64,000 bases of DNA from contig NZ_JADOBQ010000003.1 in NCBI RefSeq assembly GCF_015644665.1, forward strand, positions 372,001 through 436,000, written 5' to 3'. The first letter of the stretch is position 1. Each line of letters begins with the position of its first letter. The notes beneath the pieces are model-generated. The model was not told the origin of the DNA. It did no database searches and saw only the letters and a program-made list of their open reading frames with translations. Positions 4,865 through 27,490 of the stretch are shown here, in pieces. Both the position numbers and the translations under genes were made by a program. The DNA comes from Roseobacter sp. MH60115 (GTDB lineage Bacteria > Pseudomonadota > Alphaproteobacteria > Rhodobacterales > Rhodobacteraceae).

Positions 4865-5170
4865 TTATCTGTGACGGCGCTCTGGGGCTGCTTTTGACGG
4901 TTGTGGCTCCGCTTTGCGTTCGACAGCATGTTCTCTGTTCAAACCCCGGATCACAGTATGCGCTTCGCGGGCGAGTTCTGAGACGCGCAACATTTCCCCG
5001 GCAGAGAACGAGTTCGTCTCTTTCAGCTTGCCATCACGATCCTCATACACCTTGGCGAGACTCACCGTGTAATAACGGCCCTTATCATTTTCGTTTTGCC
5101 AAACGGCAGCCTTCAGGCGTCCGTCGCGCAAGGTTTCAACTGGTTTATTGGGCATAACTTGTCTGTCCAT
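4865..5170 (-). CDS. Hypothetical protein of integrative elements
   Basis: A 101-residue hydrophilic protein with a compact domain at residues about 10-75 (VETLRDGRLKAAVWQNEND, YYTVSLAKVYEDRDGKLKET, FSAGEMLRVSELAREAH) and a charged tail. AAGGAG lies 6 bases before the ATG. I do not know a function; the alternating beta-strand pattern and the position in the recombinase cluster suggest an element-encoded accessory protein. Confidence 0.6.
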   Translation of the reverse strand: MDRQVMPNKPVETLRDGRLKAAVWQNENDKGRYYTVSLAKVYEDRDGKLKETNSFSAGEMLRVSELAREAHTVIRGLNREHAVERKAEPQPSKAAPERRHR

Positions 5171-7713: not shown

Positions 7714-7717
7714 CCGT

Positions 7718-7891
7718 TTACCCTCCTGCAAATACAGACAGGCAGGCGAAGGCCGCAGCGCCCAGCACCCCGCAGATCACGGGCCAGTTGAGAACGCGGA
7801 TGGTCTCTGCGGTCTCTTCAACAATGCGGTGTGTGATGACCCGTTCATCCTTGCAGAAAACAGTATCGAGACATTTATGAAATCGTTCCAT
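7718..7891 (-). CDS. Small single-pass membrane protein of VirD4 module 1
   Basis: A 57-residue protein: a soluble N-terminal part (MERFHKCLDTVFCKDERVI) and one hydrophobic segment near the C-terminus (WPVICGVLGAAAFACLSVF). It ends 4 bp before the coupling ATPase and starts just after the 98-residue membrane protein. The second VirD4 module has a 47-residue protein of the same design at 19671-19814. The placement suggests a membrane partner of the ATPase (inference). Confidence 0.65.
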   Translation of the reverse strand: MERFHKCLDTVFCKDERVITHRIVEETAETIRVLNWPVICGVLGAAAFACLSVFAGG

Positions 7892-8598: not shown

Positions 8599-9633
8599 AT
8601 GTCTGGAGAAAACGTCATTTCTTTCGAAGCATTTGCGGAAAATCACCGCAAATTGAAGAGCGCAACGACGCAGCAACCACGCCAACAGGCTTTTTCAAGC
8701 GAATGGAAGAGAGTCAGTTTAGAAATCTTAATTATCTATCAAGAGGTTGAGCGAAAAAAGCGAGGCCGCTCAAAGTTCAAATGGATGGCTACACGAGACG
8801 CCATAATGGCCGACTACGATGACGCCAGTGGCAACAAGATACTGGCCCGTGACAGCGGTCTATCCTATAGCCAATTATACGACTGGTACCGTCACGGTTC
8901 TATACCAGATACAGCATTCCGCTTTGTTGATCGCTTTGTTCGGTCTTTGGCGATGACCGAGGAATATGAGCATATCTACCCAATCGCTAAGCGCGCACGT
9001 GATGAAAAACACGCGAACGCTCTTTCTGAAATTTATCAGACAAGACAACTGAATGCGGAAGTGGCAGACTACATTTTTCAGGTTTCTGGGGAGTATTTAT
9101 TCACCGACGATATTCTAGACGCTTTTTATGATAGCATTATTTTCAGATTTGATTTTGTTATATCAGGCGTAATAAAGCTCACAATTGCATATTGCCGGTT
9201 TGATGTAAAAAGGGAGTCACCACAAACGTATGACGATACAATTTTCTACGAAGGATATATGTTTGTCATACCGTTTTCGACACTTTCAGATAGGAAACTG
9301 GAAGCCTACGAACTCGAAGGCTGGAACTGCTGGATAAAACTTATTCGGCCCCGAAATAGAGGGTCGTGGCAAAATGGATGCGCCGATGGGCTTATAAGTT
9401 ATAGCGTTCTGGATCGTAAAATGGATACATCTGTTCTAGACATTAGAATCGATTTTCCAAACAATATCTTAGCACCGAGAAGCCCTGCCGATTGCGTCGA
9501 TGAACGATTTATCAGTGGTATAAAAAATGGCAAAACGACTAGAGTTACCACTCCAAACCTCCAAAGAGGCAAGGAACTATCTGTTTCTTTTGACAAAATT
9601 TTTGATTTGGCCTATTTTGGATACTTGTTTTAA
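8599..9633 (+). CDS. Unknown 344-residue protein, AT-rich cargo
   Basis: I do not recognise this protein. Residues about 45-130 are helical and may include a helix-turn-helix (KWMATRDAIMADYDDASGNKILARDSGLSYSQLYDWYRHG). The C-terminal half is beta-rich with many aromatic residues (FYDSIIFRFDFVISGVIKL, YEGYMFVIPFSTLSD). Base use is much richer in A+T than the VirD4 module next to it, indicating separate acquisition. Its stop overlaps the start of an ankyrin gene (TAATG), so the two are coupled. A defence or toxin role is possible, but only the context suggests it. Confidence 0.7.
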   Translation: MSGENVISFEAFAENHRKLKSATTQQPRQQAFSSEWKRVSLEILIIYQEVERKKRGRSKFKWMATRDAIMADYDDASGNKILARDSGLSYSQLYDWYRHGSIPDTAFRFVDRFVRSLAMTEEYEHIYPIAKRARDEKHANALSEIYQTRQLNAEVADYIFQVSGEYLFTDDILDAFYDSIIFRFDFVISGVIKLTIAYCRFDVKRESPQTYDDTIFYEGYMFVIPFSTLSDRKLEAYELEGWNCWIKLIRPRNRGSWQNGCADGLISYSVLDRKMDTSVLDIRIDFPNNILAPRSPADCVDERFISGIKNGKTTRVTTPNLQRGKELSVSFDKIFDLAYFGYLF

Positions 9634-10022
9634 TGAGTAATCCAGAGGTATATCTGCAGCCAAGAAGACGAGATCCAAACTTATTTCGAGCCGCATTGAA
9701 CGACGATGTTGGAGAAATGCTGGATGCTCTAAGTCAAGGACAGTCTTTATCAACTCAAGATGACGAGCGGCTTAATTTTACGCCGGTTCACATTGCTGCC
9801 GAACGTTCGAGTAATAAATTTTTAGCTGCCGCTGCTCAGCATCCGTCTTTTGACCCATGGGTAAAGGACGCCAATGATCGAGTTCCATGGGACCATGCGC
9901 GCGCCTTCAATAACGTCAAAGGTATGAAATTACTGCACGATTCTATGTACAATGATCTGAAGCCGGACCCAAGCAGGTTGGACTATTCTGATAATGAGCC
10001 TAGCGATTTTTATCCGGGCTAA
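9633..10022 (+). CDS. Ankyrin-repeat protein 1
   Basis: A 129-residue protein with ankyrin-type repeats (LFRAALNDDVGEMLDALSQGQSL, then FTPVHIAAERSSNKFLAAA and DANDRVPWDHARAFNNVKGMKLL). Its ATG overlaps the stop of the upstream unknown gene. Ankyrin domains bind proteins, so it may be an immunity or adaptor partner of the upstream protein (inference). Its 3' end abuts the left copy of the 17-bp direct repeat. Confidence 0.75.
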   Translation: MSNPEVYLQPRRRDPNLFRAALNDDVGEMLDALSQGQSLSTQDDERLNFTPVHIAAERSSNKFLAAAAQHPSFDPWVKDANDRVPWDHARAFNNVKGMKLLHDSMYNDLKPDPSRLDYSDNEPSDFYPG

Positions 10023-10024: not shown

Positions 10025-10524
10025 CTCCACCTGCATAAACATCGCTATTACTACCTACCATTTCGGGGGGCCGCATTCACTATTACCATTAATTTTGAGT
10101 GCCACTGAAGAGCTATTCGTAAAAATGCTTGAAGGATCTTATCATTTTGACTAAATTGGCAATAATGAAAGAAGAAAAATCCGAAAAGGAGCCGCCGGAT
10201 ATTTTTCACGCTGCAAGAAATGGTGATATTGTAGAGTTAAATGCTGCAATAGAAAGCGGCCAATCACTTTCCGACGTAGATGAGCTTGAAAAAACTCCTT
10301 TACACTTGGCTGCAGAGTATGGCCATGAGGAATTTGTTATAAGCGTTTTGGCGCGTGATAAATCCCAAGTACACCAGTTGGATCATTACGGATGCCGTCC
10401 ATATGATTATTCTGAAGGACGTAGCGACGAAAGAGCCATGCAGGCGCTGACGCTGGCTATGTATCCTCCCGAAAGTACTATCGAGAGATAGGCAAGTACT
10501 CTCACAACTCCACCTGCATAAACA
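10025..10524. repeat. 17-bp direct repeats bounding a 483-bp ankyrin unit
   Basis: CTCCACCTGCATAAACA occurs at 10025-10041 and again at 10508-10524, a perfect 17-bp direct repeat 483 bp apart. The right copy encodes, on the minus strand, the last residues (FMQVE) of the tyrosine recombinase. The left copy preserves the same residues plus a leucine and a stop (CTTTAG instead of TTGTGA). The ankyrin ORF lies between the repeats. This is the pattern left when a unit inserts into the 3' end of a gene and restores it. Confidence 0.8.
10165..10491 (+). CDS. Ankyrin-repeat protein 2 (in direct-repeat unit)
   Basis: A 108-residue protein from the ATG at 10165, with an ankyrin repeat array (DIFHAARNGDIVELNAAIESGQSL, TPLHLAAEYGHEEFVISVL, QLDHYGCRPYDYSEGRS). 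A TTG at 10129 in the same frame is an alternative start; neither has a strong ribosome binding site. It resembles the preceding ankyrin protein in design (one N-terminal 'AA(R/L)NGD' repeat then 'TPLHLAAE'), so duplication followed by divergence is plausible. Confidence 0.7.
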   Translation: MKEEKSEKEPPDIFHAARNGDIVELNAAIESGQSLSDVDELEKTPLHLAAEYGHEEFVISVLARDKSQVHQLDHYGCRPYDYSEGRSDERAMQALTLAMYPPESTIER

Positions 10525-12287: not shown

Positions 12288-13781
12288 CTATTGGTGATGT
12301 GCCTGTGACATCGCCTGCAAAGCTCCGTGAATGGCCACCATCGCCCAAGTATCGCGCGTGCAATACTCGACCAGATCAGCATAGACTTTCTCACGTTCCG
12401 GGGCCTGCGGATTGGTCAACGTGACCTCTTTCCAAAGCCGGGCTGCGCTTGCGCCTTCACGGATATCGAGGTCATCGTATGAGAGCTCCGGCAGCAAGGC
12501 GGGCAGGACGGCCTTGATCGATGCGCTTCCCTTGAACGCGGGATCGGTAATGGTCTCATCATAAAACGGGTTCATGAGATCGATCACGCGGTCATTGAGC
12601 CCTTGCAGGAATGCGGCATGCTCCGGGAAAGCCTCAGCCATCTCGTTATTGCGGGTCTTTTCGAAAGCTTGATACCAAACAAGCACCGAACCCGTCTCTC
12701 CGACGTCTTCTCGTAGCCTTTCGAGAAGCGCTGGCATCGGGTTGCTGTCATTGCGATGAAGGTACTCCAGGTGCTCGACTTCGCCACTTGGTTCCCGACG
12801 GATATGCAGTGAATACTGAAAAGGTACTTGCTGATAGGGGCGCGTCCCATCCCATGGTGGAAGCAGGCTTTGAGAGGTCTCGTAATCGAAGTAGTAGACC
12901 GGATAGGTGATCTCGCTGAGAAAGCTATCCAATGCTTTCTGGTCCACGGTTCTCAATCCGTGGCTGCGCGCATTCAGATATCTTCTCGTTGACTTGCTCA
13001 GCACAGACGGATCGGCAATCGCATCGTTTGTGCTAATACCTGCCCCGATCAGTTCTGTGGCTTTTTCCGCGTTCATGAACGGAAGCCTGTGGATGCTGTC
13101 TTCGGCGAGAGGTGGATCGAGCTTCTCACGTATTTCCAGCCATTCGCTGTAGGACTTGAGGCGAGCACGTTCCGGAGCCGGATCGGGCATGTTAGGGCTC
13201 GCTGCTACATCCAGTGCCTGATCGATCCGTGCTCGTGTGCTCTCGATCTGGGCGGCGACCTCTTCAGTGATATCTGTGATTGCCACCAATTCTCGCGGAT
13301 CGATCTCGCCAGCTCTGACGTAGTCACGATTGACGCGTGCCACCTCACAGCGGGTAATCGGGAATTCGGCGGCCTCTAGGACAACGCGCTGGAAGGCAAG
13401 GTCGAAATAGTGCTCAGGCTTGACCGAGGTGCCACTCTTGATCTCAGTCAGGACGAAGGCGTCGCCATCGCGACTGACGATGTCTGAGATGCATGTGAGG
13501 GGGCCACCTTCGTAGCGCCCTTGCGCCACGCAGGTAGCGCCATTTTGCCAAGTGTTCGAAGTTAGCGCTGTTAGCGTCTGGTAGCTTGCAAAGTCAGAAA
13601 AGCCGAGCCGGACAAGCTCAGGGAACAGCGCCTCAGCATAGGGCTCGAAAGCGTGCCCCTCATCAAACCGAGCCTGCAGCCCCGCATCGACCGGCGGTAG
13701 AAGGTGTTTGGCATGCTTTTTCAGCCAGAGCCACGCAGGATGCCTTAGGAACAACATGTAGTCGGATTTTGATAAACTCAT
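12288..13781 (-). CDS. DUF2779-type protein, nuclease-like
   Basis: A 497-residue protein of the DUF2779 type. The N-terminal half has features of a PD-(D/E)xK nuclease (SDIVSRDG then LTEIKSGTSVK at about residues 98-120). The C-terminal half begins VYYFDYETSQSLLPPWDGTRPYQQVPFQYSLH, a DnaQ/RNase H-like D-x-E motif (DYET), and ends with YCTRDTWAMVAIH. The combination suggests a two-domain nuclease of the kind found in defence loci, but no activity is established. It is followed by module A and preceded by the RT operon on the other strand. Confidence 0.75.
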   Translation of the reverse strand: MSLSKSDYMLFLRHPAWLWLKKHAKHLLPPVDAGLQARFDEGHAFEPYAEALFPELVRLGFSDFASYQTLTALTSNTWQNGATCVAQGRYEGGPLTCISDIVSRDGDAFVLTEIKSGTSVKPEHYFDLAFQRVVLEAAEFPITRCEVARVNRDYVRAGEIDPRELVAITDITEEVAAQIESTRARIDQALDVAASPNMPDPAPERARLKSYSEWLEIREKLDPPLAEDSIHRLPFMNAEKATELIGAGISTNDAIADPSVLSKSTRRYLNARSHGLRTVDQKALDSFLSEITYPVYYFDYETSQSLLPPWDGTRPYQQVPFQYSLHIRREPSGEVEHLEYLHRNDSNPMPALLERLREDVGETGSVLVWYQAFEKTRNNEMAEAFPEHAAFLQGLNDRVIDLMNPFYDETITDPAFKGSASIKAVLPALLPELSYDDLDIREGASAARLWKEVTLTNPQAPEREKVYADLVEYCTRDTWAMVAIHGALQAMSQAHHQ

Positions 13782-14043
13782 ACAACATTTATCCTAAATT
13801 GCGCCTTGTAAGTAAATGTCGAAAGTTCCTTAGGTTCTGAACAGGCTGCCCAAAATCGATTTACCTAGGAACTAGTCGCGCTGAATAACGGCTTCCCCTA
13901 GCCCGCAACGCAATTCTCACATGCCATACAGCCTACACGATAGTTGTATGACTCCTGTGGAAAACTCCAAATCTTGTGCAACTCGGGATGCACAGCACAA
14001 CCCGAACTGCTAAACTCGCAATATAGAGTAGGAGTTCGAGTAC

Positions 14044-14268
14044 GTGAATGCGGCAACAATCAAAAAAGCCCTTTCGGCGCTCTACGCGAGTCCTTTGACA
14101 ATCAGGGCTAGCTTAGACATTACCTTAGGTCCGCGCGAATGGTTCCTAGTTCAATCAGCTATGGATGGTATCCAAGACGGCAGTATTTCTGAGTCTGCTT
14201 GCTACTTGAGAGAAGACTGTTTGACGTCTCGAAAAGAAAGAGCTCGGAGACATACCAGCCATGCTTGA
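14044..14268 (+). CDS. Small ORF leading the two-RT operon
   Basis: A 74-residue frame starting with GTG at 14044, with TAGGAG nine bases upstream. The stop overlaps the first RT gene by 8 bp, so coupling is likely. The sequence (IKKALSALYASPLTIRASLDITLGPREWFLV) is helical with a basic tail. I know of no family. It may be a genuine third component, a leader peptide, or a remnant. Confidence 0.5.
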   Translation: MNAATIKKALSALYASPLTIRASLDITLGPREWFLVQSAMDGIQDGSISESACYLREDCLTSRKERARRHTSHA

Positions 14269-15607
14269 TCAGTCATTTTCAGCAGAAAACTTCAGAAAAA
14301 TCTTCGATATCGAGAATCGAAAAGGCAACTACCTCGAAGGTGAATTCTTCCCAGAAATTGAAGGTAAGAGCCATGAAATTCAATCATGCATTGGTAAACT
14401 TCGTACGCTCAGAAGTGAAAAGGACAATCATACTCCTGAAGACTATGAGGCGCTACGCGTTGACCTTTCGGTGAAACTGGAAGCTCTACGAAAAGAACGC
14501 GAGGAGATGCTCCAAGCGAAGCTTGAAGAGGTAAGCACGAACGTATGCGCAAAGGACTTTTCATTTGGAATTCAGGAAATTGATATCGGCAAACCAAAGA
14601 AGGTGTTTGTGGCCGAACGAAGCGCTGAGACACAATTCGCGCTAAAGCAAATTCAGTACAACATAAGACGTCTTTATAAGGTTAAACAGTCCAATAGGCA
14701 TGAAATCATCTGCCAGCTGCGAGAATTGCTGGCGGATGCGATGCCAAAGTACATTGTTCGCACGGACATATCATCATTTTATGAGAGCATTCCGAGAAAC
14801 ATCCTTCTAAGAAAATTACGCAATGACCCACTGCTGACTCTACAATCAAAGAAGATCATTCGAAGAATTCTTTATGAATACAGCCAAATTACCGGACTTG
14901 ACGAAGGGCTGCCACGTGGCATCGGTATAAGCGCATATTTGGCAGAGCTGTATATGCGCGACATCGACACTAGTATCCGCAACCATCCCGGTGTCTTGTA
15001 TTACGCACGATATGTGGACGACATAGTCATCATTTTTTGCCCACCACCGAATGTGGGAACAAGACTTTTTAGACAACTAGTGGCGCGCTCGTTTCGAAGC
15101 ATGGGGCTAAAACGAAACCGAACAAAGACTCAAATTCTAAGTGTGGCATCCAAGGCGTCTTACCAACTGACATACCTGGGCTATAAATTCGAGGTTGGGC
15201 CAAAGACTGTTGACCTTAGAATGTCTCCTGAAAAACTTGCACGTTACAAGAAGCGGTTGGATTTAACCTTCAATGCTTACTACCAAAATGCAAAAAAATC
15301 TGAGCTAAATTCCCGCCGACTACTAGAGAAAAGATTACGGTTTCTGACTGGCAATACAAGGTTAGTGAATAACAAGAAGAATGTGGTATCAGGAATATTC
15401 TTTTCGAACCCTCTGTTGAGCGCAATGCGGGACCTGGATGCTCTAGATTCATATCTTAAATCTAAAATTGCAGCACTACCCTCTGGACGCCTAAAGAGCC
15501 GCTTGCAGCTAATGTCGTTCAAGTATGGATTTGAGACAAAGCAGTATCACAAGTTCTCGGCGCAAAACTTATTTGAAATCGTGGGGGTCTGGAAAAATGT
15601 CTCCTAG
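14261..15607 (+). CDS. drt3a: Reverse transcriptase, Drt3a-like (UG3-type)
   Basis: A 448-residue reverse transcriptase of the unknown-group/defence class. Motif A is RTDISSFYESIP (Asp169), the LPRGIGIS motif is at about 217-224, and the catalytic YVDD is at 251-254 in YYARYVDDIVIIF. There is no maturase or endonuclease domain, so it is not a group II intron RT. Residues 40-100 form a charged helical N-terminal extension. Adjacency to a second, longer RT with an 11-bp overlap matches the two-RT arrangement of DRT type 3. In that family the smaller enzyme is the one using the ncRNA template; assignment to UG3 is by arrangement and size, not by phylogeny. Confidence 0.8.
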   Translation: MLDQSFSAENFRKIFDIENRKGNYLEGEFFPEIEGKSHEIQSCIGKLRTLRSEKDNHTPEDYEALRVDLSVKLEALRKEREEMLQAKLEEVSTNVCAKDFSFGIQEIDIGKPKKVFVAERSAETQFALKQIQYNIRRLYKVKQSNRHEIICQLRELLADAMPKYIVRTDISSFYESIPRNILLRKLRNDPLLTLQSKKIIRRILYEYSQITGLDEGLPRGIGISAYLAELYMRDIDTSIRNHPGVLYYARYVDDIVIIFCPPPNVGTRLFRQLVARSFRSMGLKRNRTKTQILSVASKASYQLTYLGYKFEVGPKTVDLRMSPEKLARYKKRLDLTFNAYYQNAKKSELNSRRLLEKRLRFLTGNTRLVNNKKNVVSGIFFSNPLLSAMRDLDALDSYLKSKIAALPSGRLKSRLQLMSFKYGFETKQYHKFSAQNLFEIVGVWKNVS

Positions 15608-17729
15608 AAAGCTACGTCTCTCTTACAAGAAGGAGCGCAGCCTCTTATCGGATGTGCTCCCTTATGAGATTCCTGTCTCATTTTCCAATCGCCATTTCTA
15701 TTCATTTATACTCCGCCACCGAATTCAGAAAAATGGAGATACAGAAGTAATATGGCTTAAGAGCTCCGCAGCACTTGATCGAATCATTCATTTGCTATTC
15801 TGCCTTCCCGATAATCCACACCGGCTTTCTGACGTAAAACGATGGGTTGGCGAACAGGAGTTAGATTTCAGGAGATATCAGCTGGACGACAGAAAAATAC
15901 CCTCGACCAACCGACACCCTAAGCCGAAAGATTTCCTAACTCCATTTCGTTATAAGATCAATCATAAAGAAACAGAGTTCCGAGAGCTTTGCGTGCCACA
16001 CCCGCGCAGTCAACTGCATGTCTCGGAATTTTATGATCGATGCAAGGAGACGATTCTCTACTACACCTCGCTAAGTCCATTCTCGATACGCGCACCTTCA
16101 AAAGTGGCAAAATTCACTTTTCACAACGACAAGCTTCACAAGGAGAAGCTGTCCTTGGAGGCGACTCGGATTGAAACTTTAGGTAATGAATATGAAAGTC
16201 TTCGTTCTTTCTTTGTATACAGAGAATACAGCAATATCTACAAGTTTTACGAATCCTACCGATATCACCGATGTGAAAAGAAATACAATAATCTCACCAA
16301 GCTAGACGTCTCCAAGTGTTTCGATAGTATCTACACGCACTCGATTGGCTGGGCGACCATTGGGAAGGATGCCCAAAAGGAGGCCTTGGGCGAAAGCAAT
16401 GGATCTTTCCCAGATCGTTTCGATAGATTGATGCAGCGAATGAATATGGGTGAAACCAACGGGATCATCATCGGCCCGGAGTTCTCCCGAATCTTCGCTG
16501 AGATTATTCTTCAGGCCATCGACCGTGAGGTCGAACACACACTCCGGAACAGTGGCTCCCGGCTAGAGCATCAGGTGGACTATGAGGTGTTTCGGTATGT
16601 TGATGACTACTTTGTGTTCTATAACCGCGATGAGGATAGGGTACGCATTGTCGACGAGCTCCAGCACGCTTTGCGGCGGTACAAGCTATCTCTAAATGCA
16701 GCAAAAGCTGTAGTGTATGAAAAACCTATCATAACTGAAATCACGATGGCTAAGCAGCAGATTGCCCAACTGCTGGAAAAGAGAATAAACTTCAACCTTG
16801 ACGAGATCGTTGATGAAAATGGTGAAGTGCTGGAGACCAAGGGGAGTGTTTTCGTCAACTCGAATGCATTGATTACGTCATTCAAGACAATCATCAAAAC
16901 GTGTGAGGTAGAATACAAGGACATGCTTAATTACACCCTTTCGATTGTCGAGAGGAAGAGTCAAGGTCTTGTTGATGACTATATGAAAGTAAGTCCGGAC
17001 AATCGTTCACCTAGGCAGATGGTGAATGCCATCACGAGTGTTATTGAGTTTGTATTTTTTATATACGCAGTGTCGCCGAGAGTTAATACTACCATTCGGC
17101 TTTGTAGGATACTGGAAGTATTTAATGCATTCTTTCGCCGCAGAGAACTCGACCGCACACAAGAACAGATTGTTCACAAACTTGTCTATGACAATACTTG
17201 CTTCATCATCAAGAAGAACAAATCTTCGGAACATATACAAGTCGAGACTCTATACTTGCTTATCGCTTTATCCGCATTGGGCCGTGATTATTGGCTGGAG
17301 CAAGGGGTATTAGCGGACTATCTGGGCATCGAATTACCGTCTCATGGAAGTAAACAAAGTTTGAACAACTCACTGAGTTATTTTTCGATTACCGTATCGC
17401 TCTTTTATATGCGCGATAAGGTTCGGTACAATGTACTTCGCGAGCATGTTGTAGATACGGCGATCAAGCGTATTCGTGATCGTTCAGAGACATGTCACAA
17501 GGATGCAGAGCTCGTTTTGTTGTTGTTTGACCTGATTTCCTGCCCATACATACCCACTGTTAAGAAAGCAGAAGCGCTTAAGGTCTTTGGGGTGTCTGAT
17601 CCAGCACTTGCCTCAGATATCATCGGATACTCCGACGATGCTTCGAAGTCCCAGCGTTGGTTTACAAACTGGTTAGAGTTCGACTTCGCAAAGGAGCTGG
17701 ACGCCAAGAGGAGTCAAGAGGTATACTAG
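15597..17729 (+). CDS. drt3b: Reverse transcriptase, Drt3b-like (UG8-type)
   Basis: A 710-residue second RT. Motif A is LTKLDVSKCFDSIYTHSI (Asp237), motif B is NGIIIGPEFSRIFAEIIL, and the YVDD box is at 334-337 in FRYVDDYFVFY. Residues about 1-160 and 430-710 are long extensions, the latter strongly helical. The ATG at 15597 overlaps the end of the first RT by 11 bp, so the two are translationally coupled. The upstream frame extension to 15525 is ignored. Length and pairing fit Drt3b of DRT type 3, whose paired RTs give phage resistance in described systems. GC content is lower than core. Confidence 0.8.
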   Translation: MSPRKLRLSYKKERSLLSDVLPYEIPVSFSNRHFYSFILRHRIQKNGDTEVIWLKSSAALDRIIHLLFCLPDNPHRLSDVKRWVGEQELDFRRYQLDDRKIPSTNRHPKPKDFLTPFRYKINHKETEFRELCVPHPRSQLHVSEFYDRCKETILYYTSLSPFSIRAPSKVAKFTFHNDKLHKEKLSLEATRIETLGNEYESLRSFFVYREYSNIYKFYESYRYHRCEKKYNNLTKLDVSKCFDSIYTHSIGWATIGKDAQKEALGESNGSFPDRFDRLMQRMNMGETNGIIIGPEFSRIFAEIILQAIDREVEHTLRNSGSRLEHQVDYEVFRYVDDYFVFYNRDEDRVRIVDELQHALRRYKLSLNAAKAVVYEKPIITEITMAKQQIAQLLEKRINFNLDEIVDENGEVLETKGSVFVNSNALITSFKTIIKTCEVEYKDMLNYTLSIVERKSQGLVDDYMKVSPDNRSPRQMVNAITSVIEFVFFIYAVSPRVNTTIRLCRILEVFNAFFRRRELDRTQEQIVHKLVYDNTCFIIKKNKSSEHIQVETLYLLIALSALGRDYWLEQGVLADYLGIELPSHGSKQSLNNSLSYFSITVSLFYMRDKVRYNVLREHVVDTAIKRIRDRSETCHKDAELVLLLFDLISCPYIPTVKKAEALKVFGVSDPALASDIIGYSDDASKSQRWFTNWLEFDFAKELDAKRSQEVY

Positions 17730-17812
17730 TTACACGCGCTTCGTCAGACAGTTAATGGCTGTATGCAGCTACACACACATGCGCGGCGGAGAGGCTGAAT
17801 TCAAAACGGTCT
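17730..17812 (+). ncRNA. Candidate drt3 non-coding RNA region with ACACACACA tract
   Basis: The non-coding stretch directly after drt3b has ACACACACA at 17771-17779, 42 bases past the stop codon. In described DRT3 systems the partner ncRNA is reported, as I recall, to hold an AC-repeat template for poly(GT) synthesis. The tract and its placement are seen directly; that it is the template is inference. The 5' and 3' ends are not defined, and the RNA may extend into the structured module that follows. Confidence 0.4.
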
Positions 17813-17813
17813 T

Positions 17814-17891
17814 TTGGCAAAAAGGGTGGTCTTGGCGTGCCACCCCTATTCCATCCCTTGCGTTGACAAGGCTTAGGGCTTCGCCCTCAGC
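17814..17891. repeat. Hairpin-rich intergenic module C (oriT-like)
   Basis: TTGGCAA at 17814-17820, then hairpin GGGTGG (17824-17829)/CCACCC (17840-17845), then TTCCATCCC at 17849-17857, then a second hairpin at 17871-17879/17883-17891 with loop TTC. The order TTGGCAA, hairpin, TTxCATCCC, TTCG-loop hairpin matches modules A and B although the stem bases differ. It is followed by ardA, a typical leading-region gene, which favours an oriT reading. It could also be part of the drt3 ncRNA. Confidence 0.45.
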
Positions 17892-18021
17892 GCACTGCAG
17901 GCAAAACAGATCGAACAGATTATGATCGTTGTCGGCTCCCCCTGAAGGTTGCCTCCAACAACGACAGAATCTTTCGCCGATTTTCCCTTCCGCTTGCACA
18001 CCCACTGTTCGCCACGAGGCA

Positions 18022-18041
18022 GGGGTTGCAGGAGCAACCCC
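18022..18041 (+). promoter_or_regulatory. Hairpin in ardA leader
   Basis: GGGGTTGC (18022-18029) and GCAACCCC (18034-18041) form a perfect 8-bp stem with loop AGGA, 23 bp before the ardA start. Leading-region antirestriction genes of plasmids can be expressed from hairpin promoters on the transferred single strand. Whether this is one, or an attenuator, is not shown. Confidence 0.45.
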
Positions 18042-18064
18042 ATACCCTACGGAAGGAGAAGAAA

Positions 18065-18334
18065 ATGAAACAATCACAAGGAGATATCAGAATATACGTT
18101 GCCTGTCTGGCAGCATACAGTAATGGCATTCTGCATGGGCGCTGGATCGATGCGGAGCGAGACGCTTTCGACATCTATGCAGACATCCGCGAGATGCTTG
18201 CAGCCTCACCAGTAGAAAATGCGGAAGAGTGGGCAATCCATGACCATCAAGGGTTCGAAGGGGCGGACGTGTCGGAATACATGGGCATCGAAGAGGTCGC
18301 AGAGCTGGCGGCCTTCATCGCAGAACATGGTGAG
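18065..18334 (+). pseudogene. ardA: ArdA antirestriction protein, truncated
   Basis: Residues 1-89 read as the N-terminal half of an ArdA antirestriction protein (IRIYVACLAAYSNGILHGRW, EEWAIHDHQGFEGADVSEY, AELAAFIAEHG), a DNA mimic that protects incoming DNA from type I restriction. GGAAGGAG precedes the ATG. At about 18331 homology stops and the frame continues to 18757 only as antisense of the VirD4 gene, giving a chimeric 230-codon frame. The C-terminal half of ArdA (normally about 165 residues) is missing. Confidence 0.8.
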
Positions 18335-19615
18335 ATCTTGTCCGTTAAACAGCGTGCCGTGCATCACTTCGCGTTTCGCACGTGCCGCACGTTCCTGGGT
18401 CAGGCCATCGTCCAGCGCAATTGTTTGCTGACCAAGCTTGCGACTGAGGTGCTGGGCGGTCTCCAGATCGGAGATGCCGCCGCCGAGATAAATCTCGACA
18501 TCGGCGCTGGCCGAGAGTGTCATTGCGCCTGTCTCGCCCAAGTTGCGCTTGATCTGGCCAATATCCTGGTAGACGCAAAACGGGCTAAGACCAAAACCCC
18601 GGCCAATGGCGTAAAACTCCGCAATCTCGGGAAAGCGCCCAAGTTGTGCGGCTTCATCAATCACGAGGTTGATGGTCGGAGCATGGGGTTTGCGCTGCTT
18701 CAGCGTGCGCACGGTGGAAAAGCACTGCCTGATCAGCACGGCGTTCTGCGCGATTAACTCGGCAGGCATCATCAGGAAGACAAAAACCGGGCGGTCGCTG
18801 TCTTCGGTCAGCACATCCAGTGTGAAATCCGCACCCGCATTGCTGGTGAACGTGTTTTGCAGATTGGCGTCATTCATGAAAGCGAGCGCGTTCGCGATCT
18901 CGCTCAGCACGGAATCATAGGTCTTACGGCTGTCTTCGGCCATTTCGATCATTTCGGTGTAAGTCACGTGCAGATCAGGCTCGCCCATTCCGGCCATGGC
19001 GTCCGCCATCTGTTCCCACGCCTCAGGCGCAGCACGGATCATGCAGACCAGATCATAAAGGCTTTGCGGCGAGACGCTGCCATCGGCATGCACCAGCCCC
19101 CGCAGCAGCGGATCAACCCAGTTTTGCGCCTTCTGTTCAAAGAACCGCGCATCGCCGCCCCCGCTTTCTGGCAGGAAGGTGCGGGCCGTGCGCCGTGCAT
19201 CAGCCACCAGCGTGTTTGACGAGGATTTCAGATGGCTTAGTAGCGAGAGGGAATGGCTGGGCAGGTCGTGCAAGTCGTAGGGATTGATGTAATAGGCATG
19301 CGCGCGGCTATGAACGAGGCTCGGTCCCATCACCGCTGCCATCTCGCCCTTGGGATCAAGGATCAGGTAACGCGGCGGCTCACCCTTGCGGCCTGATTTG
19401 CGACCCGTAGCGCCCATGATGTGGGCAAGCTTGGTCGTGAACTTGCCGCAGCCCGCACCGCCGATCAGCAATGCCCCGGCTTGTGCGGAATGCGAAAGCA
19501 TCCGGCCTTGATGAAAGCCAATCGGCACGCCGCCTTTTTTGCGAAATGCGCGGCGCACTTCAAAGGGATCGGCAAACCGGGCCGAGCCATGCGGGTGTTC
19601 CTGGTAATGGGTCAT
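18206..19615 (-). pseudogene. VirD4/TraG-type coupling ATPase, module 2 (3' truncated)
   Basis: A 469-residue VirD4-type ATPase with Walker A GGAGCGKFTTKL, ILDPKGEM, Walker B LVIDEAAQLG and YAIGRGFGLSPFCVYQDIGQIKRNLGE. The last ~42 residues are antisense to the ardA remnant, so the natural C-terminus has been lost to a rearrangement. The core motifs are intact, so residual function cannot be excluded. Start 19615 is taken with CAGGAAC upstream. Upstream lie a small TM protein and a multi-pass membrane protein, the same order as in module 1. Confidence 0.8.
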
Positions 19616-19670
19616 TGCGGTTCCTGCAAAGTGGGAGGGGTGGATCGGCCCCACTTGGGGGCCGCCCCGG

Positions 19671-19814
19671 TCAGGTGAAAATCGCGATCAGAAAGATGAT
19701 CCCGAGCGCGATGACGGCAGCGCCTTGCAGGACTTCTTTCACGTGATCGAAGAAGGTCTTCTCGATACGCGTGCGGTGGATTTCACCGACTTTTTCACGG
19801 ACTTTTCTGGGCAT
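19671..19814 (-). CDS. Small single-pass membrane protein of VirD4 module 2
   Basis: A 47-residue protein: a basic N-terminal part (MPRKVREKVGEIHRTRIEK) and a hydrophobic C-terminal segment (GAAVIALGIIFLIAIF). AAAGGAG lies close before the ATG. It matches in design and position the 57-residue protein of module 1. A role as membrane partner of the coupling ATPase is inferred. Confidence 0.65.
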   Translation of the reverse strand: MPRKVREKVGEIHRTRIEKTFFDHVKEVLQGAAVIALGIIFLIAIFT

Positions 19815-19850
19815 GGTTCTCTCCTTTTTTTGCTCAGATTTGGATTGAAT

Positions 19851-20150
19851 TCAGGCGTAGCGCAGCGCAAGCGCCGTCACGCCACTGGTGAGCGCCACAA
19901 AGATCGTGACGCGGGCTGAGAAAAACACCGCCGGATACATGAGGATGAGCCACGCGATATCCAGCATTTCCAGCATGTCGCGGCCATAGGACCGCGAGGC
20001 GGCACTCAGGAATAAATCCCGCGTCCAGTCGTAAAGCAGCGGCGCGAGGATCATGGCCGCGATGAGGGCAAAGATATTGGCCATCGCATCCGTGGATGCC
20101 TGCATCATCGACTTGGACGGCCCCTGCCGGGGATCGTTTGGATAGTTCAT
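19851..20150 (-). CDS. Membrane protein of VirD4 module 2
   Basis: A 99-residue protein with about three hydrophobic segments (IFALIAAMILAPLLYDW, IAWLILMYPAVFFSARV, IFVALTSGVTALAL). GAAAGGAAGG precedes the ATG. It corresponds to the 98-residue protein at 7896-8192 in module 1. Confidence 0.7.
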   Translation of the reverse strand: MNYPNDPRQGPSKSMMQASTDAMANIFALIAAMILAPLLYDWTRDLFLSAASRSYGRDMLEMLDIAWLILMYPAVFFSARVTIFVALTSGVTALALRYA

Positions 20151-20190
20151 TGCCTTCCTTTCAACTATGCGCCGGGCGCACTTGTCCTGT

Positions 20191-20214
20191 CGCTGAAAAC
20201 GGCTGTTTTCAGCG
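20191..20214. promoter_or_regulatory. Perfect 10-bp inverted repeat
   Basis: CGCTGAAAAC (20191-20200) and GTTTTCAGCG (20205-20214) pair perfectly over 10 bp with loop GGCT, 41 bp upstream of the membrane-protein gene of VirD4 module 2. It is either an operator for that operon or a terminator-like hairpin; there is no long T run beside it, which favours an operator. Confidence 0.45.
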
Positions 20215-20390
20215 TGGCTTGATTTGGTCTTCGATCTTGGTTCGTTGTCGGCAGCAGAAGCTGTGGCCGATGTCAGATGATGTATTTCCCCGTACGCTCT
20301 TTAAAAGATGACCGAGATTGCCATCTCTAAAGCTAGAGAAGTTTGCTGTACCAAATTGAAGTAAGCCACTGTAAGTACGGATATATTTTT

Positions 20391-21161
20391 ATGGCCAGAA
20401 CCATCTATGTTTCGAAGAACCGCTTTGTTCGTAGATCAAAAATGAGCGAATCCCAGTTCGTCACGCTCTTGTTTTTGTTCCTCGAAGGGTTATCAGCAAA
20501 AGACGCACGGCACCGGTTTTCTTCCTATCTCAAATCTCATGATGCTTTAGTTCCAAGCGTAAAAACCATTGCACGCCTGTTCACCCGTGTCGGTCGCTAC
20601 ACCTTCCACAAAGTCGTCGAACCACAGCTCTGGATGACAGACGCCGCTATATGCCAATCCCATCTGGACGACGGTCAGGACGCCTACCAGAAGTTTCTGG
20701 ATCAAACCGCGCAGAACCTCATCCTAAACGCCAGAGAACAGATGTCGTTGGAAATGTTCCATACACTCGCAGACAGCAAGCATGTTGGTTCTCCTTCCGA
20801 TATGCTGAATATGGAAATTCGCGCCTTGCTTGTTGCGCGAAAGGGGGTCACCGACATTCGCGCTGATGTCGGACTGGCCTGTTACCGCGCGGAAGCGCCT
20901 GGAGGTCTACCTAGGAGACGGGTCGATAAGGAGCACATCGATAAAATGGCAACTGGACTGCTTCAGGACATGATTACAGACCCATTGGACAATGACGGTA
21001 ACGTGCATAGCTACATTCGCACCGAACCTTACCGGTTCCCATACGCGAACTTTGGATATCCTGATTGGGACCAAATGCACAAAAAGGGTTTTTCCATCAA
21101 GGCATGGAACAAACGCCATGCGCAAAAAGCACCTATGAAACAGAAAAAACCAGGAAAATAG
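20391..21161 (+). CDS. Hypothetical protein
   Basis: A 256-residue basic protein from the ATG at 20391 (a start 16 codons earlier is possible). The N-terminal part (ESQFVTLLFLFLEGLSAKDARHRFSSYL...VKTIARLFTRVG) looks like an HTH-containing helical region of the sort seen in transposase-related proteins. The C-terminus is lysine-rich. I cannot assign a family. It is expressed away from the VirD4 module 2 operon. Confidence 0.5.
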   Translation: MARTIYVSKNRFVRRSKMSESQFVTLLFLFLEGLSAKDARHRFSSYLKSHDALVPSVKTIARLFTRVGRYTFHKVVEPQLWMTDAAICQSHLDDGQDAYQKFLDQTAQNLILNAREQMSLEMFHTLADSKHVGSPSDMLNMEIRALLVARKGVTDIRADVGLACYRAEAPGGLPRRRVDKEHIDKMATGLLQDMITDPLDNDGNVHSYIRTEPYRFPYANFGYPDWDQMHKKGFSIKAWNKRHAQKAPMKQKKPGK

Positions 21162-21297
21162 TGGATGCTCTTGGCTATCAGACTGCTGCTCAGGCCTTGA
21201 GTGGGTAGGAATTGGCATCGGTCTCATATGGGTGCGTTCCAGCTTAAACCTTCACTGCGTGGGCACACCTGTTAACGACATTTTAACGGAAAATATA

Positions 21298-21303
21298 TAT
21301 AAT
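21298..21303 (+). promoter_or_regulatory. Candidate -10 box TATAAT
   Basis: A perfect TATAAT in an AT-rich tract 7 bp before the GTG at 21311. TTAACG occurs twice upstream (21272-21277 and 21283-21288). If used, the transcript would start at or next to the start codon, giving a leaderless mRNA. Spacing to the TTAACG boxes (20 or 9 bp) is not ideal, so this is tentative. Confidence 0.35.
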
Positions 21304-21310
21304 ATACAAT

Positions 21311-22069
21311 GTGATACGAGATATTGATCTAGAAACGTTTAGCCTGAAAGCGCAATTTGCCAAACACGCGCAGGATTTTGACGACCTCCAGAACGAGATG
21401 GCCGGACGTGATGTCGGGCGGATCGAACGGTTCCTGAACGCTGACATCCGCGAAGACAAGATCAACGGCAAACGCGGCACCCGCAAGGAAGCAGGACTGA
21501 CCAATCTGCAAATCCTGATGATGAACAACCCGGCCTATGCCGCGCTGTTCGAGGAAACCGTTCAGGTTCTAAGCGACGCTCAGCGCAGGTTGGATGACTT
21601 GCTCCGGCGCGTTCAAGCCGAGGTCAAGCACGCCAATGCTGCGCTTGATGACAAGCTGGATCGTGCGGCGAGGCTACCGGATGGAACCAAGGTGTTCAAA
21701 GATCAAAACGGCGATATCCGCACAGAGGACGGCACATTGGTGGCCCCGGAACTTGCAGCCACAATCCTCTGGCGCGGCGATGAACCAACACTTGAAGCGA
21801 TCAATGCGGACAAGGATCGGCTCAATCGCCTGAGTGATTTGGCCGATGATGTGCGAGCTGGCCAGGCCGAGATCGGTGGCATGCAATCCGGCATGGCGGA
21901 TGAAACCGAGCCGCCAAGCGCCGATGACTTGAACGGTTTCAAGAAACGCGCCGAGGAAATCACCCAAGGCACCGAACAACGATTTGAACAGGAAATGACG
22001 CGTTCAGCGCCAACGGTCGCTAAGACCAGCGTGGAAGCTACGTCTGACTTGGTCGTGCCAAAACTCTAA
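21311..22069 (+). CDS. Hypothetical coiled-coil protein
   Basis: A 252-residue acidic protein starting with GTG. Helical, coiled-coil-like segments flank a small beta element (LPDGTKVFKDQNGDIRTEDGTLV). Its GC content and style match the element backbone rather than the AT-rich cargo. It could be an element maintenance or mobilization accessory protein; no family is recognised. Confidence 0.6.
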   Translation: MIRDIDLETFSLKAQFAKHAQDFDDLQNEMAGRDVGRIERFLNADIREDKINGKRGTRKEAGLTNLQILMMNNPAYAALFEETVQVLSDAQRRLDDLLRRVQAEVKHANAALDDKLDRAARLPDGTKVFKDQNGDIRTEDGTLVAPELAATILWRGDEPTLEAINADKDRLNRLSDLADDVRAGQAEIGGMQSGMADETEPPSADDLNGFKKRAEEITQGTEQRFEQEMTRSAPTVAKTSVEATSDLVVPKL

Positions 22070-22074
22070 CCAGA

Positions 22075-22419
22075 TCAGAAATCCCCGCATTCCTTCTCAA
22101 TCACGGCCAGGATGACGGCTTGAGGGTGAAAGTCCGGCAATCCGCGCATCACTTCCAGAATTCTGGCGGATCGCTGCGGTTGGCTGGCATCGCCGCCGCC
22201 AAACCATGCATCAATGCATTCCGCAATATGGCCATGCTCACCCGTTTGCGTTGCGACAATCCCGATCATGGTGACAGAGGCCTGAAAGTGACCGTCCTGC
22301 TTGTCTGCGCTCCATTCCAGTACATCCGCACCGGTGAACCCATCGGCAAAAGATTGCTGTGGACAGATCAGGCAGACCGTCAGAAACGCTTTGCCGGATG
22401 CCTTTAATGCGTTGATCAT
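22075..22419 (-). CDS. Secreted small protein, Rap1a/Tai-like
   Basis: A 114-residue protein with a signal peptide (LKASGKAFLTVCLICPQQSFA) and a mature domain (GFTGADVLEWSADKQDGHFQASVTMIGIVATQ...CIDAWF...ILEVMRGLP...AVILAVIEKECGDF) that resembles Rap1a/Tai-type small exported proteins. A similar protein is at 62529-62843, also close to a serine recombinase. It is divergent from the recombinase at 22462, with 42 bp between start codons. Confidence 0.65.
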   Translation of the reverse strand: MINALKASGKAFLTVCLICPQQSFADGFTGADVLEWSADKQDGHFQASVTMIGIVATQTGEHGHIAECIDAWFGGGDASQPQRSARILEVMRGLPDFHPQAVILAVIEKECGDF

Positions 22420-22461
22420 AAACGAAGGTTTTTGATCACCCGCACTTTAACAGGAGGAAAT

Positions 22462-23205
22462 ATGGGCGTATACACGGAAAGCCGCGATTTGCGGCGCATC
22501 GCATCGGCAAAACGGGTCAAATCGGTGCCACAGCGGTCTTGCTCAGAAAGGTTCGTTTTTGAGCAGCGCAGGAGGCAACCACTCATGCATGTTTGGCCCA
22601 GTATCGATGCGCCGGGGCGGCGGATCGGCTACGCGCGCGTGTCCACCAAGGACCAGAAACTGCGCATGCAGCGCGACGGGCTGAATGACGTGGCTTGTGA
22701 AAAGATATTCGAAGATCACGGCGTCTCCGGCAGCAAGGCCAGCCGCCAAGGGCTTGATGCCATGCTCAAGGAACTGCGCGAAGGCGATACGGTCGTGGTG
22801 TTCAAGCTGGACCGTCTAGGGCGCTCAGTCCTGCACCTGTCCGACCTGCTGGTGCGGTTCCGCAACCAAGGCATCCACTTTTGCTCCTTAAGCGAGGGCA
22901 TCAACACGACCACCCCCGGCGGCAAACTGGTCTACCACCTGTTCAGCGCCTTCGCCGAATTCCAGCGCGACATCATCGCCGAGAACACCATCGCCGGATT
23001 GGAAGCGGCAAGGAAGCGTGGCACGCGACTGGGCAGACCGCCTGTGCTGGATATTGAGACGGTTTTGCTTGCGCATCAGCATATCAACCAAATGGGCCTG
23101 TCAGTTTCAGAGGCAGCGCGCAGGATCGGTGCAGATCGCTCAACCTTGGGCCGATGGCTTGGGATGTTAAGAGCTAAGCAAGGTGACTCGACACCCGGGA
23201 TGTGA
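22462..23205 (+). CDS. Small serine recombinase (resolvase/invertase type)
   Basis: A 247-residue recombinase. After a ~50-residue N-terminal extension comes the catalytic domain: RIGYARVSTKDQ with nucleophile Ser, HGVSGSKASRQGLDAML, DTVVVFKLDRLGRSVLHLSDL, GKLVYHLFSAFAEFQRDIIAENTIAGL. A C-terminal helix-turn-helix follows (LSVSEAARRIGADRSTLGRWL). AGGAGG precedes the ATG at 22462. A later Met at 22585 would give the usual length (about 206), so the N-terminal extension may be untranslated. Confidence 0.9.
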   Translation: MGVYTESRDLRRIASAKRVKSVPQRSCSERFVFEQRRRQPLMHVWPSIDAPGRRIGYARVSTKDQKLRMQRDGLNDVACEKIFEDHGVSGSKASRQGLDAMLKELREGDTVVVFKLDRLGRSVLHLSDLLVRFRNQGIHFCSLSEGINTTTPGGKLVYHLFSAFAEFQRDIIAENTIAGLEAARKRGTRLGRPPVLDIETVLLAHQHINQMGLSVSEAARRIGADRSTLGRWLGMLRAKQGDSTPGM

Positions 23206-23289
23206 TAACGGTTGACATGGAGTGCATTTGCTTCGTCAGGTTGACCATCATACCCAATTTCACGCCCTAGCGATTCTGGAGTATTATTT

Positions 23290-24129
23290 TTGAAGCATTT
23301 TCTGTCGTGCCTCTTAATTCTTTCGGCCAGTTTGTTTCTGCGTCCACACGTCGCCATGGCGTCACCGGAATTGCGAAAGGCAGCGAATGTTATGGTGATG
23401 GCGGAAGCCCTATTGGCCGAGACTTCATTGCTCAGTGAGCGGTTTGGCGAAAACATAGAGGAACTTGTATGGTCCGCATCATTCTCGGAGCGTCAGTGGG
23501 TGGTGAACATCAGTAGCGTTGTTAACGGGCAAGAAGCTAACATGACGATGACTGGTTATGCTTGGGGTGATGACGACGAAACCATAGCGATTAATTACTC
23601 CGGTTTGGGCAGGGTAGGCGCCGAACCCGTTCTGATGCACGGACAAGCTGTTTGGCTTTACGATCCCGAAGCGCAGGACTATCAATCCATGGATTTTCAT
23701 CATGTCACGCGAATTGGTGAAAACTCTATTTGGGGATGGGTGCTTGGAGCTGAAATCATAGTTGGCAGCCTTGGGGGAAGTGCGCTCGCGGTTGGAACTT
23801 CTGCAGCAGCAACGGGCGGTTTGGCATTGGGGGCCGCTCCATGGATAGCTGCGGGAGGCGCCGCAAAAGGTGCGGCAGGTCTTGTGACTTTCAGCGCTGC
23901 TGCGAGTGTATTGCTAGAAGCTGACGAGGCTCCAGAGCCACCTCCAACTCCGACGCGCCCATCTCTCCCAAGGAGCAACGAGGAACTTTTGCCAGAACGC
24001 GGAAACATCATTGTCGCACTGTCAGGCGACGGTCAGCTAACGGGTAGCGCAAGTGACGGAACTCATTTCTTGAATGGCTCATACAACTGGAACGAAGGCT
24101 CTGCTAACGGATCCATCTCATCACAGTAA
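23290..24129 (+). CDS. Exported protein with Gly/Ala-rich hydrophobic segment
   Basis: A 279-residue protein starting with TTG (GGAG upstream) and a signal peptide (FLSCLLILSASLFLRPHVAMA). A helical N-terminal domain and a beta segment are followed at about residues 150-205 by a long Gly/Ala-rich hydrophobic stretch, then a proline-rich linker (PEPPPTPTRPSLP) and a Gly/Ser-rich tail. The hydrophobic stretch could insert into membranes. No family is recognised. Confidence 0.6.
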   Translation: MKHFLSCLLILSASLFLRPHVAMASPELRKAANVMVMAEALLAETSLLSERFGENIEELVWSASFSERQWVVNISSVVNGQEANMTMTGYAWGDDDETIAINYSGLGRVGAEPVLMHGQAVWLYDPEAQDYQSMDFHHVTRIGENSIWGWVLGAEIIVGSLGGSALAVGTSAAATGGLALGAAPWIAAGGAAKGAAGLVTFSAAASVLLEADEAPEPPPTPTRPSLPRSNEELLPERGNIIVALSGDGQLTGSASDGTHFLNGSYNWNEGSANGSISSQ

Positions 24130-26911: not shown

Positions 26912-27490
26912 TCAACTCGTTTCCAAGCGTTCTATGAGTTCGGGAACCGACAATTCGGATCTTAACTCCGATGACCACGGACACCAGTGATTTCCGGGTA
27001 AAAAAGCCCCGCCAACATCTGCAAGATTTTCTTCCACATAGTCGCTGGCAGAGTCACACACTTCGATTGCAAACTCAAAAAAATCTACTGAAGTCGGGTC
27101 AAGGTGGTAGCTCCAACCAGGATTATAGCTTGCCGTCGAAGGTACAATTGTACCCTGCACATGCACACTTTTCGTCTCTTCGCCAGATAAAATTCTCCGC
27201 GCGGTTCGGATTTGGCTTTCGCTGACGAGCTTGACTACAAAAGGCTTTTTTGCGACGTCTATCATTTCGAAGTACACAGGACCAACCAAGTTATACTGAT
27301 GAGGTCTTTCTGCGTGAATTCCAGCGTATAGATCGGTAGCGACTATGAAGCCACCCGCCTCGCCGTTGACGAAATCGAGCTTCCAACGTACGTAGTCTGT
27401 TGTCAGTGCTGACTTGGCCTTCGCAATAGCGTTGTTTAGTGCTTCCGTAAGGTCATTGCTGGCCGAATGGCCGATAAAATGGTCGGTCAT
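26912..27490 (-). CDS. BP74_N-like domain protein
   Basis: A 192-residue protein. Residues about 5-55 (DLTEALNNAIAKAKSALTTDYVRWKLDFVNGEAGGF) resemble the small dodecin-like or 'FVNGEAGGF' beta domain found in some secreted proteins. Residues about 70-185 (VYFEMIDVAKKPFVVKLVSESQIRTARRILSGEE, NPGWSYHLDPTSVDFFEFAIEVC, GGAFLPGNHWCPWSSEL) resemble the BP74 N-terminal domain known from Dictyostelium and scattered bacteria. No role in bacteria is known to me. Confidence 0.65.
   Translation of the reverse strand: MTDHFIGHSASNDLTEALNNAIAKAKSALTTDYVRWKLDFVNGEAGGFIVATDLYAGIHAERPHQYNLVGPVYFEMIDVAKKPFVVKLVSESQIRTARRILSGEETKSVHVQGTIVPSTASYNPGWSYHLDPTSVDFFEFAIEVCDSASDYVEENLADVGGAFLPGNHWCPWSSELRSELSVPELIERLETS

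Follow-up and report, generated by a model that had tools for sequence, protein, structure and literature searches.

A stretch of 64,000 nucleotides from Roseobacter sp. MH60115 (contig NZ_JADOBQ010000003.1, positions 372,001 to 436,000; this whole stretch is called the window) carries two adjacent reverse transcriptase (RT) genes, and the question raised by this locus is whether the two genes form a working anti-phage system of the defence-associated reverse transcriptase type 3 (DRT3) and which further parts belong to it. A reading made from the sequence alone (the sequence-only reading) had filed the pair as DRT3 and had placed a third, small open reading frame (ORF) at the head of the operon. 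From the protein families, the aligned residues and a downstream RNA, the locus is very probably an apparently intact DRT3 system of a branch with a compact RNA (here, clade II), with a working carried over from that described for Escherichia coli. Judged by the same evidence, the true third part of the system is this RNA, which the sequence-only reading had missed, and not the small ORF.

Both RT genes lie on the + strand, are intact and have 448 and 710 codons, with a common stretch of 11 bp (15597-15607), as had been described. The first, drt3a (14261-15607, +), is assigned by family models, AlphaFold2 and Foldseek to the RNA-templated reverse transcriptase Drt3a (UG3, 448 residues), and the second, drt3b (15597-17729, +), by the same means to the protein-templated and protein-primed reverse transcriptase Drt3b (UG8, 710 residues). 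The YVDD centres are intact in both proteins, at Y251-D254 of Drt3a (15011-15022) and at Y334-V-D-D337 of Drt3b (16596-16607, +; located by sequence and family alignment). Drt3a scored 404.5 bits against the NCBIfam equivalog NF041747 (cut-off, 200) and Drt3b 734.6 bits against NF041748 (cut-off, 350), and the best PADLOC models by a wide margin were Drt3a for the first RT and Drt3b for the second. The filing as DRT3 is supported by these NCBIfam and PADLOC models together with the downstream template RNA and the gate and primer residues of Drt3b. Above the Pfam cut-off both RTs matched RVT_1 only, and the earlier statement that maturase and endonuclease domains are lacking was borne out.

Both proteins have the common RT fold and match weakly to other RT families, as would be expected if they belonged to another class (retron, diversity-generating retroelement (DGR), group II intron, or single-gene abortive infection (Abi) or DRT systems) and stood side by side by accident. 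The scores, however, were 72.4 and 38.4 bits for the group II maturase model TIGR04416 (cut-off, 300) and 41.8 bits for the retron RT model St85 (cut-off, 235; this test covers the RT model only). For both RTs the NCBIfam models of Drt2, Drt4, Drt5 and AbiA scored far under their cut-offs and far below Drt3a and Drt3b, and the only trace of a DGR reverse transcriptase was a weak match of Drt3a in the PDB (26.6 bits). With an equal RT pair and an equal kind of RNA recurring across phyla, an accidental pairing of this sort has practically no probability.

AlphaFold2 models gave predicted local distance difference test (pLDDT) values of 92.7 for Drt3a and 86.8 for Drt3b, with residues 178-202, 583-589 and 707-710 of the latter below 50. 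In Foldseek searches against the PDB (entries to April 2026), the nearest structures were the G2L4 RT and DRT9 for Drt3a, and DRT6, UG15/DRT4 and AbiK for Drt3b, in agreement with the pairing of a class 2 with a class 1 enzyme given for DRT3 in PMC13174585. Among the 50 matches listed there was no DRT3 entry, neither PDB 26cz nor 9z6y.

The working of DRT3 is described for the E. coli system (EcoDRT3) in the bioRxiv preprint of Wang et al. (PMC13174585). There, Drt3a makes poly(dTdG) by copying a 5′-ACACAC-3′ template on an RNA whose coding sequence lies downstream of drt3b, and EcoDRT3b makes poly(dCdA) without a nucleic-acid template, primed on Y666, its nucleotides being chosen by E22 and R241 with the assistance of R71. 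The strands anneal and RecBCD keeps the product low; recBCD mutants could not maintain the system, and abortive infection is set off by lambda Gam (PMC13174585). A review (PMC13314766) gives an account of parallel work of Deng et al. in which the complex is 6:6:6 with the RNA as scaffold. PDB 26cz is taken to be the EcoDRT3b of Wang et al., the length after its SUMO tag matching the 667 residues of that protein, and PDB 9z6y/9z6z presumably represent the system of Deng et al. (Science 2026).

Residue equivalents in Drt3b of the window were derived from alignments to these structures and within the family. Against 26cz, E24, R129, D237, F242, R298 and D336 correspond to E22, R71, D182, F187, R241 and D278, respectively, and Y710 stands opposite the terminal residue of 9z6y and the tyrosine that is invariant across the family. 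The codons concerned (all +) are 15666-15668 for E24 (dA gate), 15981-15983 for R129, 16488-16490 for R298 (dC switch) and 17724-17726 for Y710, the C-terminal residue and equivalent of the priming Y666. In an alignment of 104 Drt3b rows (short frames L002, L010, L109 and L110, the duplicate L001 and matches below 100 bits left out), the positions of R241, D182, F187, D278, D279 and Y666 were invariant; the residue at E22 was E in 100 rows and D in 3, and that at R71 was R in 101 and N in 2, with one gapped row at either position. All departures belong to the E. coli-type branch (clade I): E22 to D in L008, L106 and L107, and R71 to N in L007 and L011. A coupling of altered gates to an altered template was considered and none was seen, AC repeats following drt3b in the gate-departing loci as well. 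L007 (a Phaeobacter inhibens plasmid) and L011 (from the genus of the window) have, besides the N at the R71 position, a tail reading Y-F-S-S or Y-F-S-G, and by these residues their product may differ from the usual one. The second active-site aspartate of the clade I Drt3b of L130 appears as N in an unchecked alignment.

The RNA was analysed on 122 nt 3′ of drt3b from 37 relatives, the window and its six closest relatives (L016-L021) being left out of the alignment. RNAalifold gave 19 pairs, 13 of them with compensatory changes; in an 18-pair version, 97.9% of cells were paired and both sides had changed in 13 pairs. The covariation score was 0.442, compared with 0.209 after shuffling (0.442 being reached in none of 500) and 0.037-0.186 with the partners slid along. 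By this measure three helices covary, and each is also found in the centroid fold of the window (all +): a closing helix P1 (17735-17739 with 17781-17785), a hairpin P2 within it (17756-17771) and a 3′ hairpin P4 (17824-17830 with 17839-17845). P1 (17735-17785 in all) encloses P2 and the sequence ACACACACA (17771-17779, +), predicted from the sequence and the covariance model to be the template for poly(dTdG), which starts at nucleotide 42 past drt3b. The sequence-only reading had ended the locus at 17779, 50 bp past drt3b, which is the end of the ACACACACA run and part of the system. Both features of the E. coli RNA, a position downstream of drt3b and an ACACAC template in a loop, were thus found by sequence and covariation, and ACACAC was invariant in the 37 seed relatives.

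When the covariance model (R1) built from these relatives was run on the whole window, it matched 17731-17855 (+) at 75.1 bits (E 4.3e-18), with the next best match at 11.2 bits; these bounds, given here for the compact template RNA, are those of the model match and not transcript ends. R1 also matched 36 of 73 other loci at E ≤0.01 and 43 at E ≤1, many of them near kin of the seeds (44 rows stand for 43 distinct loci, L009 and L090 being one contig; the match in L004 and a second match in L020 are misplaced). The 18 loci of E. coli type within the 73 gave no match, nor did five further clade I loci (L121, L123, L124, L125 and L130). Within 150 nt past drt3b, (AC)3 or (CA)3 occurred in 86 of 86 clade II rows (strict ACACAC in 84), versus 190 of 4250 stretches of 150 nt picked at random from these loci. 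A snoRNA family, the sole Rfam match in 13700-18200, was rejected (16.5 bits; gathering score, 39).

RecC, of the RecBCD nuclease said to restrain EcoDRT3, was not found in this host. Its genome contains adjacent full-length addA (1221 bits) and addB (952 bits) and gave no match for RecC, and RecBCD restraint is in our reading a trait of the host and not of membership in DRT3. Among 51 DRT3 genomes (the host and those of 50 of the 80 loci kept), RecC was present in 14, alphaproteobacterial AddB over the cut-off in 23, a weaker AddB-like match in 12 more and neither in 2, and none had both AddB and RecC; several of these genomes are metagenome bins, so single absences may be assembly gaps. Two Drt3b proteins 87.7% identical to each other were found, one in a RecC genome (L063) and one in an AddB genome (L051). 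Since RecC occurs in 14 of the 51 genomes and the present host has AddAB without RecC, restraint by RecBCD can hardly be general, and we infer that AddAB would take over the role of RecBCD here. In the literature searched, no paper held both DRT3 and AddAB. With similar Drt3b proteins in RecC and AddB genomes, the RecBCD guard model becomes a question that can be put directly. The sequence-only reading had singled out the alphaproteobacterial setting: as such it is not unusual, being that of 33 of 80 named clade II loci, and what does stand out is the host in which no RecC was found.

Transferred to the window, the E. coli scheme would run as follows. Drt3a would bind the RNA encoded directly downstream of drt3b and copy ACACACACA repeatedly, with poly(dTdG) as the product; Drt3b would take its C-terminal Y710 as primer and produce poly(dCdA), with E24 and R298 replacing a template strand; and the two products would anneal to double-stranded repeat DNA. 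In this host, AddAB rather than RecBCD would degrade the repeat DNA, and once a phage interferes with AddAB, or some other trigger acts, this DNA would accumulate until growth stops.

Several observations weigh against this picture. The priming tail of Drt3b (707-710) is modelled at pLDDT <50. Rfam contains no family matching the RNA (13700-18200 searched, E up to 1), and as a single sequence the RNA of the window folds with a z-score of -1.95, equalled by 7 of 200 shuffles, while that of L018 gave -1.30 and that of L045 -0.37 with a minimum-energy fold unlike the consensus; the single-sequence fold being only mildly unusual, it is covariation and the covariance model that carry the argument for the RNA. 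Finally, E. coli could not keep wild-type DRT3 without RecBCD (PMC13174585), and the present host is without a RecC match.

A locus that is DRT3 by descent could also have lost its function by now and be carried along in the island while it decays, as the truncated gene ahead of drt3a does (see below). That neighbour has indeed decayed, and related loci are broken, for example L017, with drt3a split by an insertion, and L002, with drt3b in two annotated frames. In the window, however, neither frame is shortened, the residues examined for catalysis, gating and priming are retained, and so are the three RNA helices and the template; we consider a decayed system improbable and retain the reading as an apparently intact one.

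On the evidence of protein trees, lengths and RNA, DRT3 divides into two architectures, and the window belongs to the compact-RNA branch, clade II. In a tree of 103 Drt3b rows (L036 left out), the window fell on the 85-row side of one branch and the E. coli-type systems on the opposite side, with a Shimodaira-Hasegawa-like approximate likelihood ratio test (SH-aLRT) value of 96. With the columns of the extra segments described below removed, trees of Drt3a and Drt3b (92 rows, 78 + 14; L111, L017, L105 and rows with a short Drt3a further left out) split on one branch with SH-aLRT values of 99 and 100, respectively. All trees are quick searches with long-branch warnings, made within DRT3 only, and do not set the root of the split. 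Both solved systems are of clade I, L100 scoring 1337.8 bits to 9z6y and L123 1488.3 bits to 26cz.

The two sides differ in three lengths. The first AC repeat past drt3b lies at a median of 124 nt in clade I (14 rows, 102-164) versus 41 in clade II (85 rows, 25-131); the residues from E22 to the position of P116 of the window number 42 (17 rows, 36-60) versus 78 (85 rows, 49-97); and those of Drt3a ahead of R146 of the window number 91 (16 rows) versus 145 (84 rows), some Drt3a lengths being falsely low or high because a contig or locus ends within the gene or a start is misplaced. The ranges overlap through L076 (131), L092 (82) and L035 and L037 (78) for the repeat, and through L081 and L086 (49) and L107 (60) for the Drt3b segment. 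Six loci added later conformed, four to clade I (L123 included; three of the four had a detected repeat, at 129-170) and two to clade II (L127 and L128), and no intermediate architecture was among them. The window departs from clade I, in which the template lies about 100-170 nt past drt3b and extra segments are absent, with its template at +42 and both segments present. From alignments, lengths and AlphaFold2, the segment of Drt3a comprises about codons 28-98 (14342-14554, +) and is modelled as a helical hairpin (H31-52, H59-96), and that of Drt3b comprises about codons 44-110 (15726-15926, +) and is modelled as a small alpha/beta module (residues 44-108 or so). In the RNA, single-sequence folds of L100 and L123 have a long closing helix around several stems 5′ of the template, while P1 of clade II holds one hairpin and the template only, with further hairpins on the 3′ side.

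Clade II was found in Alpha-, Beta- and Gammaproteobacteria, in Bacteroidota and with one locus in each of four other phyla, in part in metagenome bins. An E. coli plasmid (L002, CP083496.1) carries at 1659-5169 a DRT3 of the window type by 42% identity and an RNA match of 47.5 bits, its drt3b being spread over two annotated frames. The relatives on genome contigs were the best 80 of 205, obtained with search patterns derived from clade II, and the first viral scan yielded at least the matches listed (L113-L120, L122, L126 and L129 are viral contigs already in the set and entered the counts once); for these reasons the sizes of the clades are not population frequencies.

What the split means for function is a separate matter. 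Tentatively, and with doubt prevailing, clade II may be a second ribonucleoprotein design, in which the scaffolding of the absent 5′ RNA stems is taken over by the extra protein segments and the complex is made differently, while AddAB or, interchangeably, RecBCD keeps the repeat DNA low in the hosts and anti-AddAB proteins of phages act as the trigger. That protein elements replace RNA stems is a guess within this proposal, and it is beyond test here because the change maps to one branch. Basic RNA-binding arms were considered for the extra segments and found unsupported, their charge being near neutral (medians of 0.02 and 0.018 per residue). The chances are about even that the pattern is real and has no functional meaning, the lineages differing in unrelated ways around one shared form of the complex: all three characters change on a single branch, which puts repeated joint change beyond test, and the near-neutral segments are not obviously RNA-binding. 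Set against this are the confident folding of the segments in the models of the window, their retention through most of clade II, and the scaffold role that a review gives to the RNA in the E. coli complex (PMC13314766).

The RNA model of Wang et al. was built from EcoDRT3 and the systems nearest to it and then widened through homologue searches (PMC13174585), and the word "compact" is absent from their text; the compact type is not claimed here as unpublished. The mechanistic work on DRT3 considered here concerns E. coli systems of one branch, and in clade II the RNA and both enzymes are built differently, so that clade II offers a natural comparison for the role of an RNA scaffold in protein-templated DNA synthesis.

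The frame at the head of the operon does exist, as a GTG-started ORF of 74 codons (14044-14268, +) overlapping the start of drt3a by 8 bp; its standing as a third operon gene did not hold. PADLOC, NCBIfam and Pfam gave no match for it. The equivalent point in L016, L017, L018 and L021, 8 bp into drt3a, is the end of a gene of 406-440 codons, and Pfam finds T5orf172/MUG113, a domain which we take to be of the GIY-YIG type, in the upstream proteins of L016, L018, L021, L027 and L096. When the intact L018 protein was compared by tblastn, only its residues 321-406 of 406 matched the frame of the window (31% identity, E 5e-7), so that the T5orf172 match (265-375) has lost roughly its first half, and at the DNA level the identity to L018 is 78% over 143 bp. 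The frame is therefore listed as a degenerate 3′ remnant of a T5orf172/MUG113 gene and not as a component of DRT3. A conserved leader peptide was ruled out by the intact T5orf172 genes of the relatives and the partial tblastn match.

The overlap of 8 bp, shared with the full T5orf172 genes of L016, L017, L018 and L021, could still be taken to mark a true third protein of the DRT3 of the window, but the match is partial and, among the 82 loci with enough upstream sequence (the window counted), only 8 have a T5orf172 gene at a distance of up to about 25 nt from drt3a (L016, L017, L018, L021, L027, L049, L051 and L096) and 4 have one farther upstream (L062, L067, L076 and L080); we regard a third protein as very improbable. 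The T5orf172 gene of L018, L021, L051 and L096 is preceded by a gene matching DEAD/ResIII helicases (weakly in L018, with DEAD below the cut-off there), and the small ORF is most simply read as the tail of such a neighbouring gene pair. This two-gene module lies directly upstream of drt3a (L018:408-3672, L021:372-3648, L051:347-3638 and L096:1-3086); PADLOC gave weak matches only, and by its domains it is possibly an unnamed helicase-nuclease defence pair. Two features of the locus deserve a look: the compact form of the RNA together with the additional protein segments, and the occurrence in a host with AddAB.

The DRT3 stretch is a dip in composition, with 44-46% G+C versus about 58-66% at 32 to 61 kb of the window. 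Neither of its flanks occurs as a whole in the 18 other species of the genus compared, of which 8 and 5 have matches to short pieces, and a genome placed in the same genus (G003) carries a DRT3 contig. When 385 genomes drawn evenly from the class were searched with a clade I protein as the query, 5 Drt3b matches at E <1e-50 were found, that of the window included. The host genome has one further RVT_1 match over the cut-off (G000:C12:612512-612904). In L017, the insertion (L017:3646-4858) splits drt3a after about codon 402 and contains two ORFs, which by eye look like an IS3-type transposase pair.

Around the locus, genes for type IV coupling proteins (TraG/VirD4) lie on either side (6088-7731 and 18206-19654, both -), together with resolvase-type recombinases and an integrase-type ORF. 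A large serine recombinase frame (2788-4446, -) overlaps a tRNA-Tyr gene (2817-2900, +), a possible integration site. Divergent from the DRT3 operon is a gene for a DUF2779 protein (12288-13781, -) with weak Cas4-like and RNase H-like matches; when PADLOC was run on 13 other proteins of the window, weak Cas4-like matches of this protein were the only ones. Tandem short ORFs with ankyrin-repeat matches occupy 9633-10022 and 10129-10491 (+; the first below the Pfam cut-off), and a cluster of low G+C (26912-31799, -) encodes a BP74_N protein, an 800-residue protein without a Pfam match at E 0.001 and a HIT-domain protein. Megablast of 18001-24000 against plasmids gave no match.

Compared with known systems, the locus of the window shares with EcoDRT3 (represented by the stand-in L123) the order Drt3a-Drt3b, the YVDD sites, the equivalents of E22, R71, R241 and Y666, and an RNA downstream of drt3b with an ACACAC template. 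It differs in that EcoDRT3 has a Drt3a of 398 and a Drt3b of 667 residues, neither extra segment, and a template at +129 instead of +42, and was studied in a RecBCD host. The DRT3 of 9z6y/9z6z (stand-in L100) likewise has both protein families and a downstream AC template; its Drt3b is about 29% identical to that of the window and 650 residues long, its template lies at +124 and extra segments are absent. Among the closest are L018, L016 and L017 (metagenome-assembled genomes named Rhodovulum, Henriciella and Sneathiella), with Drt3b proteins 85-87% identical to that of the window, a very similar RNA and an equal template position; unlike the window, they have an intact T5orf172 gene in front, and drt3a of L017 is interrupted. 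Among single-RT systems, DRT9 (class 2, RNA-templated) is near the Drt3a model and AbiK, DRT4 and DRT6 (class 1, protein-primed) are near the Drt3b model, whereas DRT3 combines both kinds of RT in one operon.

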